In this document: piece by piece, positions 58,118 to 64,000 of the stretch
Position numbering within the stretch: the stretch's first letter is position 1
Layout: each line of letters starts with the position of its first letter
DNA from: Psychroserpens sp. Hel_I_66
Lineage (GTDB): Bacteria; Bacteroidota; Bacteroidia; Flavobacteriales; Flavobacteriaceae
Assembly (NCBI RefSeq): GCF_000799465.1
Contig: NZ_JUGU01000001.1
Location: 3,678,501-3,742,500, forward strand
Direction of reading: 5' to 3'
DNA: 64,000 nucleotides
Position numbers and translations under genes: made by a program
The notes under the pieces: model-generated
What the model was told of the DNA's origin: nothing
Database searches by the model: none
What the model saw: only the letters and a program-made list of their open reading frames with translations

Positions 58118-59155
58118 CTAACTTTTTCTAAAGATTATTGAGTTAAACAAATAATTGCGATAGCTTTTGTTCATAAAGAAGAGGTTCAGTCTGTTTATGA
58201 CAGTAAAACTTGCAAATTTTATTAATTTTAAGCTCTTTTCAAATTCTTTATATTTTATTTTTAGTACATAGCTTCTCATTCTTAGAGTGTTATGACCAGA
58301 TACATTGATCAGATTAAGTTCTCTAAACCAAACACTATTTAAGTTAATAAAGTGTAAAACAAATTTAGATTTATTAAAATCAGTATTTTCAATGTGATTT
58401 AATATTCGTAATACGAGACTGTCGTAGGAGTTCTTAAAGTTGAGTGTATTATAATAATAGTTTTTATCATTAAGTTGAGATGTTAAGATATTGATGAGAT
58501 TGAGGTGATAACTATTTGGTGTTCTGTAGTCACTAGAAGATAATCTACTTTCAAAAATAGTATCTATGGGCAACAAATACCTATGTGACGGGTTTAGGAC
58601 GTGCGTATGTATTTCTACTGCTGCTAATTTTTTTTCGTTGATTTGCCTTGGGAGATGCCTGAAGTTAGACTTATCATAATTAAATTCTACAAGCTTACTA
58701 TATCCTTCTTTTTTTAGGATATCAAAGGCGCTTTCAGCATCTTTTTCTAAGACTAAAATATCAATATCTCCAATCATTCTTTCACCAATATCCTTGAAAT
58801 AGCCTCCAATAAGTAATGCCATCCCTTTAATAAAAACAAATTCAATATTATGCTTTTGTAACATAGCTGTTAGTGATTGTGCTTCCTCAATTAATTTTTT
58901 ATTTCTGTTTCTATTAATTGAAGTGATGTCTTTTAAATAGTCTGAAAGGTCTTGAGGTAAAAGATGCAATAGGTTTTTTTGGTTTAACCTGCAATATAGA
59001 GTCGTGAGAACGAGGTGGCGACTAGCAGTTTGCACGATATTCTCCCAATCAATTTTTGAAGTTTCTAACTTCTTTTTTAAGATAGAATTGTCATTATCAA
59101 AGCTTAAAATATCAGCAATTAGTTGATGCGTTTCTATGTTTGAATTTTTGAGCAA
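58118..59155 (-). CDS. NTP_transf_5-type nucleotidyltransferase-family protein
   Basis: A 345-residue protein of the uncharacterised nucleotidyltransferase family. The active-site segment is FVFIKGMALLIGGYFKDIG (K110, G111) followed by the paired aspartates in ERMIGDIDILVLEKDAE (D130, D132). N-terminal and C-terminal parts are helical. Members of this family appear in some lasso-peptide clusters next to HPr-kinase-like enzymes. Here it follows such a kinase by 41 bases. The start is a TTG at 59155; no ATG fits. Target and product are unknown; it may modify the small peptide encoded at 60352. Confidence 0.8.
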   Translation of the reverse strand: MLKNSNIETHQLIADILSFDNDNSILKKKLETSKIDWENIVQTASRHLVLTTLYCRLNQKNLLHLLPQDLSDYLKDITSINRNRNKKLIEEAQSLTAMLQKHNIEFVFIKGMALLIGGYFKDIGERMIGDIDILVLEKDAESAFDILKKEGYSKLVEFNYDKSNFRHLPRQINEKKLAAVEIHTHVLNPSHRYLLPIDTIFESRLSSSDYRTPNSYHLNLINILTSQLNDKNYYYNTLNFKNSYDSLVLRILNHIENTDFNKSKFVLHFINLNSVWFRELNLINVSGHNTLRMRSYVLKIKYKEFEKSLKLIKFASFTVINRLNLFFMNKSYRNYLFNSIIFRKS

Positions 59156-59196
59156 TTGTAATTAGACTTAGTTTAGACAAATATCACCAATAAATT

Positions 59197-60336
59197 CTAA
59201 TCACTCATCAAACTCCTTAAACTTTGTATGGCAAAATCATTGTCACTGTAATTAAGTTCATAAAACTCAATAGTACTAAGCCAATTTAAAAATTGTTTAG
59301 CATGCTCTTGTTTAGGAGAAATCCATGAGTCTGGAATAAGAATCCTTAAAATGTTTTCTTCGGAAACTTTTTTAAAAGTAGAATGGCAATCTTTAGAATA
59401 TTTTACAGATACAATTTTATTACAAGGCAATTTTTTTATTGAAGATTTAAAATCCTTTGAGGGTGGAACATATTTAATATTAATTCTTTTTGGTCCGTTG
59501 TAGTAGGTGGGCAGGGATTTAAAACCTTTGATATTATTTTCAACAGGAAGGAAAGCCCCTTCTTTAATAGATATCGCAGCTGGATATCTATAAACGCTCA
59601 AATCTTCGAAGTAAAAAGGTGTAAAATCATCTGAAAGTAAATCAAAACCATTAGCCATCAAGATTGCAGATAATGTGCTTTTTCCATTTCCTGAATCACC
59701 AATTAACATTACAGCCTCATTTGAATTGCAAACTGTAGAAGCATGAAAGGTAGCTAGCCACTTATCACTATCCTTATTATGAATTACAGATGTTAATTCT
59801 AATGCAAATCTCCCTTGTAATAAATAATAATCTTTAACAGGACAGCTATATATACAGGTTTGATCTTTATACAGTAATAGGTACCCGTCAACCTCAAAAA
59901 TACTAAATATGATACCTTCTGAAGTTTCACTGGTTTCTGAACAATGCGCTAATTGCGGGTGGAAGAGTTGTTCTATTTTTGGAGATCCAAAAAGTAATTT
60001 AATTTTTTTATTTCCGAAGTCATAAGATCGAGAGATTAATTTATCAGGGATCTTAATGTCATCAAAATGTTCTTCGGTTAGAAGTTCATCCTCGGTATTT
60101 GATGTCTTTAAAAAAGTTGTTAATTCTATATACAGTTCTTGATATCTATCTTTTTGGTTATGATCTTGAATACAGAGACTTTCACCAAACTCTTTAACTG
60201 ATTTAGATTGTAGATAAATTTTTAAAATACGGTAAGCTTCCGCAGAAATTACAGCATACGTGTTTGAGCTTTGAAACCATAGTATAAAACTATTTCCAAT
60301 GCTTTGAATGTACTTTGGAGCGAAATTCGCCTTCAA
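59197..60336 (-). CDS. HPr-kinase-like protein with N-terminal PqqD/RRE-like domain
   Basis: A 379-residue protein. The C-terminal half is HprK-like: FHASTVCNSNEAVMLIGD leads into the P-loop GDSGNGKST (213-221) and the LLSDDFTPF motif with D236-D237. The N-terminal 80 residues (NTYAVISAEAYRILKIYLQSKSVKEFGESL) look like a PqqD-type winged-helix peptide-recognition element. This fusion would let the kinase bind a precursor peptide and phosphorylate it or a partner. It starts at TTG 60336, six codons after the TAA of the small peptide gene and in the same frame. The domain assignment is by eye. Confidence 0.78.
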   Translation of the reverse strand: MKANFAPKYIQSIGNSFILWFQSSNTYAVISAEAYRILKIYLQSKSVKEFGESLCIQDHNQKDRYQELYIELTTFLKTSNTEDELLTEEHFDDIKIPDKLISRSYDFGNKKIKLLFGSPKIEQLFHPQLAHCSETSETSEGIIFSIFEVDGYLLLYKDQTCIYSCPVKDYYLLQGRFALELTSVIHNKDSDKWLATFHASTVCNSNEAVMLIGDSGNGKSTLSAILMANGFDLLSDDFTPFYFEDLSVYRYPAAISIKEGAFLPVENNIKGFKSLPTYYNGPKRINIKYVPPSKDFKSSIKKLPCNKIVSVKYSKDCHSTFKKVSEENILRILIPDSWISPKQEHAKQFLNWLSTIEFYELNYSDNDFAIQSLRSLMSD

Positions 60337-60351
60337 TATAAATTTTTGCTT

Positions 60352-60513
60352 TTAATCAAAAGGATTTCCACCTGGATCAGGAGGAGAAGAGGCATGAGCC
60401 TGCTTAGGATTGAGGATAAGAAATGTACCCATCGCTGTAAGCGCAGCGTACTTACCCATCTTTTTCATGGCTTCCTTACGAGTAATTTGATCTTGAGAAC
60501 TATTTCTTTTCAT
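60352..60513 (-). CDS. 53-residue putative exported or precursor peptide
   Basis: A short ORF with ATG at 60513 and TAA at 60352-60354. The peptide has a basic N-region with a Tat-like TRKEAMKKMGKY segment, a hydrophobic stretch (AALTAMGTFLIL, about 23-34), an AHA signal-peptidase-like site at 39-41 and a short Pro/Gly-rich end, SSPPDPGGNPFD. It could be secreted as a 12-residue peptide or be the substrate of the kinase and nucleotidyltransferase encoded just downstream. No lasso-type leader motif is visible. Codon use and the tight 15-base spacing support a real gene. Confidence 0.72.
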   Translation of the reverse strand: MKRNSSQDQITRKEAMKKMGKYAALTAMGTFLILNPKQAHASSPPDPGGNPFD

Positions 60514-60535: not shown

Positions 60536-60543
60536 CAAAAGTA
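60536..60543 (-). promoter_or_regulatory. Possible -7 box for the peptide/kinase/nucleotidyltransferase module
   Basis: Read leftward, TACTTTTG fits the Bacteroidetes TAnnTTTG box, with a TTTA element about 20 bases further upstream as a weak -33 partner. The ATG follows 22 bases later. No terminator separates this point from the upstream secreted-protein gene, so read-through is also possible. Confidence 0.35.
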
Positions 60544-60593: not shown

Positions 60594-62954
60594 TTATTCA
60601 ATAATCACCTTTATAGATGTTTTTTGCTGATTTCCCCTTAAATTAATTATATATATACCATTACTTACGTTAGATACATCAATTCGGTTTTGTAAATTAT
60701 TAATATTAAGACTATTTGAAGAAATTAATCTACCCTGAATATCATAAATATCACAGTTTGTGGATTCTAAAAGCTGACCATTGATTACAATTTCTTTTGA
60801 TTTAGAGGACATATAAATATCTAAATCCTCAAAATTATTTTCTTGAGTATTCAATGAATTATCTGTGAATCTCAAATAGAATCTCCCAACTCCAGATAGA
60901 GCCATAATAGGTGTTAAGACGTAATTAGAATTCGTTAATAAAGTAGATGTATTAGCAACAGTATCGTCTAAATAAACATCTATAGTGCTTGGTATGTTGG
61001 AATCGCTTAAGCTGAACGTCAATTGCACACCTTGGCTCGCATTAACACCAATAGGTATGGTTACATCATTGTAATCTGTCTCACCAAGAGCTTGTATACC
61101 AAAAGGGACGTTATTATTTTCTTCGACTAAATGTGAATAAATTGAAAACGATGGTGCAGTTCCTCCAAAAAGACTTGCATCATAACCAGGGTCTAAGCCC
61201 AGCGTAGAAAATTCACTAAAGTAAATGTCTGTTAAGAACTCATTGTTTGCAGTAGTTAAATTTAATTTTAGATTCGTTACAGCATTTGTATCACGACCTA
61301 AAATAAAGTCATCTGTACCATTTGTGTTACGCATGCTAGGTAAAAAACTGACTGTCTCAGAAGCAGAATTTGATGCTACAAAGAAGCCTTGACCAGGAGC
61401 AATATTATAAGAGCTAAAAAGATTTATGATAGTATAAATTCCTGCGGAGTTCGTATCGGTATCATCGCTATATCCGTAAATAGCAACAGCGCTATTTTCT
61501 AGAGCACTAGAATTTTCCATTAAAAAGGCAGAGGCATTTATATAAGATGGGTAAGGGTTACCTATTAAGTTAAATTTGCTACCACCTCCTGGGAAAGTAA
61601 TAGTTTCCATTATAGGACCGGTTTCTGCGGTACCTGTAAACGTGAATGTCCCTCCATCTGTAGAACCTGTGCGGTATCCAACTCCAGTATCTAAAATAAT
61701 TCCGTCATCAACAGTTTCTTCAAAAAGCACGTATTCACTCTCACTATTGTCAAAAGGTCCGTAAAGATAAAATGGTCCCTCTCCCATAATGGTTCCCGAT
61801 AGAATGTTGCCATTTGTACTTCTTAAGTCTCCAAAAGTCATTCCTGCCAATGGCGGACTTATTAGATCATTTCCAGTTGTTGATGTACCAGTTCCAGCAG
61901 CATTATTAACGTGACGGTTATAGTTTACCGTTCCAACAATTATACCATCAGAAATCAAACTCGAATAGCTATTTGATACAGATTCTAAAGTTAAACCATC
62001 AATCGTATTCGACGTTGATAAAGTACTTCCAGAATTTACTGTTAAGCTAGATCCAGCATTTACTGTGACTTTATTAACAGATGCATTGATATTTAAATCT
62101 AAATTATTATTAATTGTAACGTCACCACCATTAGTTGGGATTCCTCTATTTAACCAGTTGTTTTCAGTATTCCAATTACCATCATTACTAGATATGTATT
62201 TTGTGTTTTCTGAAAATGGATTTGAATAAGCAATAGCAGATGGATTTATACCTGAACCAGTAGCATTAAAAATCACTTGATGCGTTAATGTTTTAGTTAT
62301 TGGCCCAGTTTCAGGATTTTCATTCGGAAATCTAGCGAACATAAAATTACCACTACTATTATTATTCCAATAAGTCAAACCAATAGGTTTGTCATTTCCA
62401 GGAGTAAAGTTTAACTGGGACCATGCTATCCTTATACGCACTTCTCCATTAGGAGAATTTTGAAAGTTGACTCTAGAATCTACGTTATCATTTCCATTCG
62501 TTCTAGATTGAAAATTCCAAGAACCAGATGTACCATTGTACACTTCAATGGCATTTCCATTAGATGTTGGTATTCCGTAAAAGGATGAATTATTTTCAAA
62601 AACTATATAATAATCTGGTAATCGATTTCCAGTTTGAAAACCTACACCTTCTATTGTACTGCTTGTGCCTCCAGATACATTTGGGTTTGTGTCAATTGCA
62701 ACATAATATAAGTCTGATGAATAATTTGTCATACCCTCAGTCCAGCCAATATATAAATAAGTTGCGTCCCAATGTGTATAGAATGTTGTCACTGACGTAG
62801 CTATAGTGCCTTCTCCACCAAAAGCAGCTGCGTTATTTGTGCCACCATCCATGCTCACTGTATAAGGAGTACTCTGAGCTTCCGAAGAACTTGTAAAAAT
62901 TAAGCCAAATAAGATACTTAATATTAAAGCTAAAAGAGTGTATTTTTTTATCAT
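60594..62954 (-). CDS. Secreted protein with CBM9/DOMON-like domain and T9SS sorting domain
   Basis: A 786-residue protein with a signal peptide (LLALILSILFGLIFTSSSEAQ). An N-terminal domain (about 30-230) with FYTHWDATYLYIGWTEGM and DLYYVAIDTNP resembles the CBM9-like/DOMON fold; a short beta-repeat region (NGNWNTENNWLNRGIPTNGG, about 255-330) and a longer beta-rich middle follow. The last 70 residues (CDIYDIQGRLI...VSNGIYIINLRG...SIKVIIE) form a type A T9SS sorting domain, so it is exported and possibly anchored to the cell surface. No catalytic motif is evident. It is a paralogue of the protein encoded at 63121. Confidence 0.85.
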   Translation of the reverse strand: MIKKYTLLALILSILFGLIFTSSSEAQSTPYTVSMDGGTNNAAAFGGEGTIATSVTTFYTHWDATYLYIGWTEGMTNYSSDLYYVAIDTNPNVSGGTSSTIEGVGFQTGNRLPDYYIVFENNSSFYGIPTSNGNAIEVYNGTSGSWNFQSRTNGNDNVDSRVNFQNSPNGEVRIRIAWSQLNFTPGNDKPIGLTYWNNNSSGNFMFARFPNENPETGPITKTLTHQVIFNATGSGINPSAIAYSNPFSENTKYISSNDGNWNTENNWLNRGIPTNGGDVTINNNLDLNINASVNKVTVNAGSSLTVNSGSTLSTSNTIDGLTLESVSNSYSSLISDGIIVGTVNYNRHVNNAAGTGTSTTGNDLISPPLAGMTFGDLRSTNGNILSGTIMGEGPFYLYGPFDNSESEYVLFEETVDDGIILDTGVGYRTGSTDGGTFTFTGTAETGPIMETITFPGGGSKFNLIGNPYPSYINASAFLMENSSALENSAVAIYGYSDDTDTNSAGIYTIINLFSSYNIAPGQGFFVASNSASETVSFLPSMRNTNGTDDFILGRDTNAVTNLKLNLTTANNEFLTDIYFSEFSTLGLDPGYDASLFGGTAPSFSIYSHLVEENNNVPFGIQALGETDYNDVTIPIGVNASQGVQLTFSLSDSNIPSTIDVYLDDTVANTSTLLTNSNYVLTPIMALSGVGRFYLRFTDNSLNTQENNFEDLDIYMSSKSKEIVINGQLLESTNCDIYDIQGRLISSNSLNINNLQNRIDVSNVSNGIYIINLRGNQQKTSIKVIIE

Positions 62955-63070: not shown

Positions 63071-63098
63071 AAAAGCACATCTATAAAAATGTGCTTTT
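63071..63098. terminator. Terminator after the second T9SS protein gene
   Basis: AAAAGCACAT / ATGTGCTTTT, 10-bp stem with T-runs in both directions. Read leftward it lies 23 bases past the stop of the gene at 63121. Confidence 0.82.
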
Positions 63099-63120: not shown

Positions 63121-64000
63121 TTATTTTAGAATAACTTTTTCTGAATGAGAGGCATTGTTAGAATTTATTTCTACAATGTAAATCCCAGAAGCTATACTTG
63201 ACACATCAATTTGATTAGATATTTTGGTCGAGTCCAATTCCGAAGAAAAAATAGCACGCCCTTGTATGTCATAAAGATTAATCATTGAGCCTTTTGTTAT
63301 TTCTCCTTTTACAAAAATAGCTTTAGGGTTTGCAGTAGTATATACTTCTAAAGTGTTTAAGTTGTTTTCTGGAGTTGAAAGTGCATCTTCAGTATAACGT
63401 AAGAAGAAACGACCGGTGCCTTCTAAAGTTGTATTAGCAGTAAAGTTATAATCTGTTGTATTTAGCAGTGTAGATATGTTTTCAACCGTATCATCAAGAA
63501 AAACCTTTGTATTACTTGGTAAAGAATTTTCAAGAATGCTTACAGTAATTTGTTGACCTTCTTCTGCATTAATGCCTATTGGCACTATAACATTTGTTAA
63601 ATCTGTTGAGCCAAGTGATTGGATAGCAAAATCCTTACCTTCGTTATCTTGAACTAAATGTGAATATATAGCAAAGTTACTAGGTGCTACATCTCCAAAT
63701 TCGCTACTGTCATAACCGTTATCCAAACCTTGGGATGCGTTAGTGTTAAAATAGAAACTTGTCGAATATGAATTAGAACTAGTTGTAGCTTGTAATTTTA
63801 AGTATCCTAAATTATTGCCAGAAGCATTTGTTGTATTTATACTGTTTGATGAACGACCTGCAATAAAGTCATCTGTATTACCTCGGGATCTCATTACTGG
63901 AGTGAAATTTACAATTTCGCTTGCCGAACCTGCTGCAACTAAAAATCCCTGTCCTGGAGCAATAAGCGCATCTGGGTTAGCATCTGAGTAAGCTTGATTC
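63121..64000 (-). CDS. T9SS-sorted secreted protein, N-terminus beyond the window
   Basis: The frame is open to the right window edge, so only the C-terminal 292 residues or so are seen; an internal ATG at 63894 should not be mistaken for the start. The visible part (IAPGQGFLVAAGSASEIVNF, RSRGNTDDFIAGRSS, PIGINAEEGQQITVSI) lines up with the C-terminal half of the protein encoded at 60594. It ends in the same type A T9SS sorting domain (INLYDIQGRAIF, SGIYIVEINS, EKVILK). The gene is complete only outside this window; its function is unknown. Confidence 0.85.
   Translation of the reverse strand, partial: NQAYSDANPDALIAPGQGFLVAAGSASEIVNFTPVMRSRGNTDDFIAGRSSNSINTTNASGNNLGYLKLQATTSSNSYSTSFYFNTNASQGLDNGYDSSEFGDVAPSNFAIYSHLVQDNEGKDFAIQSLGSTDLTNVIVPIGINAEEGQQITVSILENSLPSNTKVFLDDTVENISTLLNTTDYNFTANTTLEGTGRFFLRYTEDALSTPENNLNTLEVYTTANPKAIFVKGEITKGSMINLYDIQGRAIFSSELDSTKISNQIDVSSIASGIYIVEINSNNASHSEKVILK

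Follow-up and report, generated by a model that had tools for sequence, protein, structure and literature searches.

The window analysed here, a stretch of 64,000 nucleotides from Psychroserpens sp. Hel_I_66 (contig NZ_JUGU01000001.1, positions 3,678,501 to 3,742,500), carries a small gene cluster that probably makes a modified exported peptide. The coordinates in Table 1 are those of the window, all on its minus strand. On that strand, the gene of a 53-residue precursor-like peptide is followed after 15 bp by the gene of a 379-residue kinase, whose N-terminus is predicted to be an RRE (recognition element of ribosomally synthesized and post-translationally modified peptides, RiPPs), and after a further 41 bp by the gene of a 345-residue NTP_transf_5 nucleotidyltransferase (NTase). 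The TTG starts of the kinase (60336) and of the NTase (59155) look mostly conserved across the genus. A sequence-only reading of this DNA had described the three open reading frames (ORFs), on one strand and with short gaps, as a candidate modification unit. The unit is present as described, including the exact tail of the peptide, and its linkages to type IX secreted cargo, a promoter-like box and a probable outer-membrane barrel had been missed.

Table 1. Position of the putative peptide-modification genes and of their flanking features in the window
Feature	Coordinates	Strand	Basis or remark
Precursor-like peptide, 53 residues	60352..60513	-	leader 1-41, core 42-53 = SSPPDPGGNPFD
Predicted 12-residue core after AHA/SS signal-peptidase-like site	60355..60390	-	site inferred from the AxA rule
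Ser43 codon, nearly invariant core serine, proposed phospho-acceptor	60385..60387	-	alignment conservation
TAnnTTTG box, TACTTTTG	60536..60543	-	resembles Bacteroidota -7 promoter element
RRE-kinase fusion, 379 residues, TTG start	59197..60336	-	profile match, alignments, fold searches
RRE-like domain, kinase residues 1-84	60085..60336	-	predicted fold
HprK-like catalytic part, kinase residues 190-379, with H198, K219, D236, D237	59200..59769	-	invariance and fold
NTP_transf_5 nucleotidyltransferase-fold protein, 345 residues, D130/D132/E181	58118..59155	-	PF14907 and alignment
Probable outer-membrane beta-barrel, 196 residues	57471..58061	-	weak family matches only; position 3' of the NTase conserved
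Type IX secreted cargo, directly 5' of the peptide gene	60594..62954	-	Por_Secre_tail match
Second type IX cargo, running off the window	63121..63999	-	Por_Secre_tail match

The peptide combines a conserved leader (consensus ITRKEAxKKMGKYAALTAxGTFxILNPKxAxA) with a short core. The N-terminus had been called Tat-like or signal-like. The leader does look like a Tat or Sec signal, except that it carries TRK, with RK in place of the Tat twin arginine. The true motif [ST]RR occurs in none of the 120 database relatives listed, [ST]RK[ED]A occurs in 108 of them, and TatC was found in 9 of 9 module genomes. The core serine is present in all 120 listed relatives and is invariant in the 26 aligned peptides, which comprise that of the window and 25 of 39 peptide matches, rows having been dropped before counting. 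It is also found in 68 of the 70 fetched peptides that could be anchored, the two others being a pseudogene in genome G010 and a copy with Tyr in G342. The other seven of the 77 fetched peptides gave no anchor; by eye, six of these comprise three with AxAxS, two with a serine further on and one that is cut short.

The exact tail SSPPDPGGNPF[DE] is retained in 16 of the 21 kinase-linked copies of the genus, the window included, despite the fact that the genus kinases are merely 42-62% identical to the window kinase. Outside the genus the tail is variable and the serine at +2 after the AxA site is nearly always retained. Pairwise comparison of 14 genus members (14 of the 21 loci, all with 53-codon peptides) gave a median nonsynonymous divergence (pN) of 0.069 versus a median synonymous divergence (pS) of 0.562, a sign of purifying selection. 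The values for the 12-residue core are 0.030 and 0.393, whereas the RRE part of the kinase has a pN of 0.401. Since pN lies far below pS, the core included, these substitution patterns indicate that the peptide is a real gene, beyond a chance ORF.

The kinase had been read as a PqqD-like N-terminal segment joined to an HPr-kinase-like P-loop domain, and both halves of this proposal are supported. Residues 1-84, modelled alone, are predicted to adopt the winged-helix fold of PqqD (three strands and three helices), and the best matches in a search with the predicted structure are solved RREs. The N-terminus was modelled separately because the search with the full kinase returned no RRE among the matches listed, the list being filled by matches of the catalytic part. 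The corresponding profiles are silent: PqqD is absent among the eight Pfam families matched by the window kinase at E up to 10, NCBIfam gave no PqqD or RRE model for it, and no such profile is among the best 25 of the 69 families matched by 78 kinase members. The RRE piece was aligned from the window and 45 relatives, taken from 120 listed of 568 found. The remainder of the kinase is predicted to have the HPr-kinase/PEPCK fold, and residues 196-376 match HprK_rel_A (TIGR04352) with an E-value of 5.7e-16, at 58 bits against a cut-off of 200. H198, K219, D236 and D237 are invariant in 24 of 24 rows (the window and 23 of 25 loci) and in 78 of 78 (the window and 77 of the 120 listed relatives, 568 found). 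These residues correspond to the His-Lys-Asp-Asp motif of HprK-like RiPP kinases, named in PMC9266682. One copy, in genome G101 (L110:8221-9364), is split into two overlapping frames and may be broken or carry a sequencing error.

The third protein belongs to the family to which it had been assigned, NTP_transf_5 (PF14907, E 6.3e-33). Its residues D130, D132 and E181 do not vary in any of the 23 aligned rows (that of the window plus 22 of 25 NTases), and a sequence search of the PDB returned two weak CdiI matches. On the same strand, 3' of the NTase, lies the gene of a 196-residue protein that is probably an outer-membrane barrel, judging from its weak matches to OMP_b-brl (E 0.11) and, in a PDB sequence search, to OprF (E 0.91). 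This gene occupies the same position in all 20 other genus loci; outside the genus it does so at 11 of the 31 kinase loci, in several genera.

The kinase and the peptide occur together across genomes. Among 97 related genomes both were found in the identical 26, and in the genus members G011 and G022 the kinase, the peptide and the NTase were all not found. Among 349 Flavobacteriaceae genomes the kinase was found in 34, the peptide in 38 and both in 33 (Fisher 8e-40, for genomes that are not independent). In a sample of 395 genomes of the phylum, the full-length kinase and the peptide were present in the same five, all Flavobacteriaceae; nine further kinase matches are weak and cover part of the catalytic domain only. 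Of the 51 fetched kinase loci, 46 carry the NTase beside the kinase, and another breaks off directly behind the kinase gene. G026 has the NTase between the peptide and the kinase, and in the small genomes G115, G209 and G383 the three genes are unlinked but all retained. The sequence-only reading hinged on an RRE-like fold and on a conserved small ORF linked to the two enzymes; the former is predicted and the latter is found in relatives in both the 97- and the 349-genome surveys.

Five of the 349 genomes have a peptide match without a kinase match. Three of them (G354, G374 and G342) are 89-92% complete and the NTase was likewise not found in them; the peptide copy is broken up in G354 and G374, and in G342 it carries Tyr for the serine. 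The other two, G196 and G334, have intact peptide copies and completeness of 84% and 82%. Two genomes run counter to the joint occurrence: in G211, which has the kinase, the peptide is truncated at its core, and in G108 the kinase lies at the end of a contig and no peptide was matched. A search of the genomes with the kinase alignment added three loci with partial kinase matches, two of which (L167 and L168) appear by eye to be without an RRE module. The genome contigs gave no match to a single kinase sequence, and the PADLOC models gave nothing at E 0.01.

The peptide gene is also linked to type IX secretion. The gene directly upstream in the window matches Por_Secre_tail (E 1.2e-9). Among nine other upstream genes scanned, eight match this family at E 0.001, five of them above the cut-off; the upstream gene at L140 has a type IX-like tail by eye and no Pfam match, and was counted as a miss. 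Adjacency was then counted for 76 fetched peptide ORFs, cargo being defined as a gene similar to residues 271-786 of the window cargo (E 1e-5), on the same strand and at most 700 bases upstream. The window's own ORF is not part of this count, nor is one of the two halves of a split copy; the matches in G699, two from G115 and one from G257 also fall outside it, and the G354 copy gave no ORF match. A cargo gene lies upstream in 64 of the 76, against an expectation of about 2-3% if one gene per kilobase is assumed, for loci whose shared ancestry makes them not independent. A kinase gene lies within 500 bases downstream in 43 of the 76, and among the 33 ORFs away from the kinase a cargo gene is still found upstream in 24. 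Por_Secre_tail matches number 75, 78 and 114 per genome in three genomes.

When the peptide is mapped onto a tree of 96 cargo tails, its presence takes about 20 changes, of which well-supported branches require at least 15, so the association of cargo and peptide was not inherited once. A single clade of cargo tails tied to the peptide is ruled out by the same number. The peptide label is nevertheless clustered on this tree, with 20 changes versus a mean of 28.1 after shuffling and none of 500 shuffles as low. At two loci (L088:7288-8305 and L028:3212-4297), ORFs of about 280 residues that contain only the C-terminal part of a cargo stand directly before the peptide gene, as if part of a recombining cassette. 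Two other peptide copies (L138:6731-8956 and L086:2273-4996) lie beside other exported-looking protein genes and not directly behind cargo; these neighbours we take, by eye, to be FISUMP/DUF1566-like. In the window, an inverted repeat of 12 pairs on the minus strand (63071-63098), terminator-like, separates the two cargo genes.

TAnnTTTG is the consensus of the -7 promoter element of Bacteroidota. Such a box stands 23-30 bases before the ATG of the peptide at every one of the 21 kinase-linked genus loci, against 1.0 expected from shuffling, a count that covers the genus with the pseudogene L092 set aside. The operon of these loci thus appears to have its own promoter-like element. The box was found at none of the 12 extra peptide copies of the genus, and its absence there suggests that these copies are probably transcribed together with the preceding gene. 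A scan for sigma-70 sites showed no excess (37 found versus 37.4 expected).

These observations are best accounted for, with a probability of roughly 0.7, by a linear RiPP-like system in which the RRE-kinase and the NTase tailor a small exported peptide. In the cytoplasm, the RRE fused to the kinase would bind the conserved leader of the precursor. The HprK-like domain would then phosphorylate the nearly invariant serine two residues past the AxA site, a step proposed because the His-Lys-Asp-Asp set is intact and because the linear polyphosphorylated peptides (LPPs) of Bacillota offer a precedent. Subsequently, the NTP_transf_5 enzyme may build on the phosphate, possibly adding a sugar in the manner of PsmN in pseudomycoidin. 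The leader would double as an export signal, via Sec or Tat, and a signal peptidase would free a peptide of about 12 residues. Given the gene linkage, the freed peptide may work together with type IX-secreted surface proteins at the cell envelope, joined in the genus by the probable outer-membrane barrel of the same cluster. A single kinase and a single NTase would be shared by the several precursor copies that follow different cargo genes.

The closest known systems are the LPPs (lppAKBSDN; Popov et al. 2026, PMC13381572). They comprise a discrete RRE, an HprK-like kinase, an NTP transferase, a SipW-like peptidase and an MsbA-like transporter, and phosphorylation of core Ser3 was demonstrated in a Bacillus subtilis host; according to the authors, they are restricted to Bacillota and their role is unknown (PMC13381572). 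The module of the window would work like an LPP system without being filed as a member. Both have an RRE (predicted here), an HprK-like kinase, an NTP transferase, a short precursor that would be linear here too and a serine near a signal-peptidase-like cleavage site (S3 in LppA, predicted +2 here, where its phosphorylation would be by analogy). The differences are several. Here the kinase and the RRE-like domain form one protein, whereas the RRE of LPPs is discrete; the leader is signal-peptide-like, with [Y/W]xxP in 0 of 26 and 0 of 120 listed peptides; and neither a SipW-like peptidase nor an MsbA-like transporter was noticed among the genes scanned beside the module, no dedicated profile search having been made for the window or for relatives. 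The module belongs to Bacteroidota and not Bacillota, is linked with type IX cargo and with a probable outer-membrane protein, and in some genomes has several dispersed precursor copies. The surroundings of one module copy (L137:4031-8612) recall the capsule-locus setting reported for LPPs.

The HprK-related kinase A family (TIGR04352) shares a homologous kinase domain, matched here at 58 of 200 bits, but the fused RRE-like domain, the precursor peptide and the type IX cargo set the present module apart. The cassette of that family holds a PqqD-like protein and an NTase. No paper describing such a system in Bacteroidota was found in the open-access literature, judged by title and the start of the abstract. 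The main text on LPPs nowhere mentions Bacteroidota (PMC13381572), and the RRE-discovery paper PMC12710340 has no mention of kinase, HPr, nucleotidyl, Bacteroid- or Flavobacter-.

The HprK-family fold of the kinase, an NTase fold that also suits sugar or lipid activation, and the nucleotide-sugar and flippase-like genes seen by eye beside the L137 copy would suit a peptide that is a bound regulator of the kinase and not its substrate, the target of the kinase being another molecule, such as an HPr-like protein or a lipid or sugar used in building the envelope. This is unlikely, since the nearly invariant serine beside the cleavage site and the strong conservation of the core fit a substrate better, the dispersed extra copies behind cargo genes are difficult to reconcile with regulators, and RRE domains are known to bind substrates (PMC13381572). 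The cargo adjacency would be expected if the peptide stayed unmodified and, bearing its signal, were a partner or an assembly factor for type IX cargo, with the kinase and the NTase linked for regulation only. Such a role is less credible still: the kinase and the peptide are present or absent together in both genome surveys and are kept when unlinked, and the RRE of the kinase would be left without a role.

The module also resembles the tailoring of paeninodin- and pseudomycoidin-type lasso peptides (PadeK, ThcoK, PsmK and PsmN), in which the nucleotidyltransferase-like PsmN is needed for a hexose on phospho-Ser (PMC9266682). The likeness lies in an HprK-like kinase with the His-Lys-Asp-Asp set and in its nucleotidyltransferase-like partner; the serine, C-terminal in those peptides, is near the N-terminus of the core here. 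A lasso system with its cyclase elsewhere in the genome, suggested by these shared enzyme types (PMC9266682), is very improbable, given a serine on the N-terminal side of the core, a leader without [Y/W]xxP and the lack of a match to the B2 leader peptidase family PF13471 in 9 of 9 module genomes, searched whole and so beyond the window to which the earlier no-lasso argument was confined, the cyclase family not having been searched.

If the linear RiPP-like system is as proposed, type IX surface proteins might each be paired with their own modified peptide, one RRE-kinase/NTase module phosphorylating and adding sugars to many cargo-linked peptides, whose mature form would cap, anchor or decorate the partner at the outer membrane; this extension is speculative and rather doubtful. 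The system itself, if true, would extend phosphate-based linear RiPPs from Bacillota into Bacteroidota, and would add to them a kinase with a fused RRE and a leader that also serves for export. It would also tie a RiPP-like pathway to type IX secretion, a link for which we know of no earlier example. For the role of LPPs, the linkage to cargo would offer a concrete place to look.
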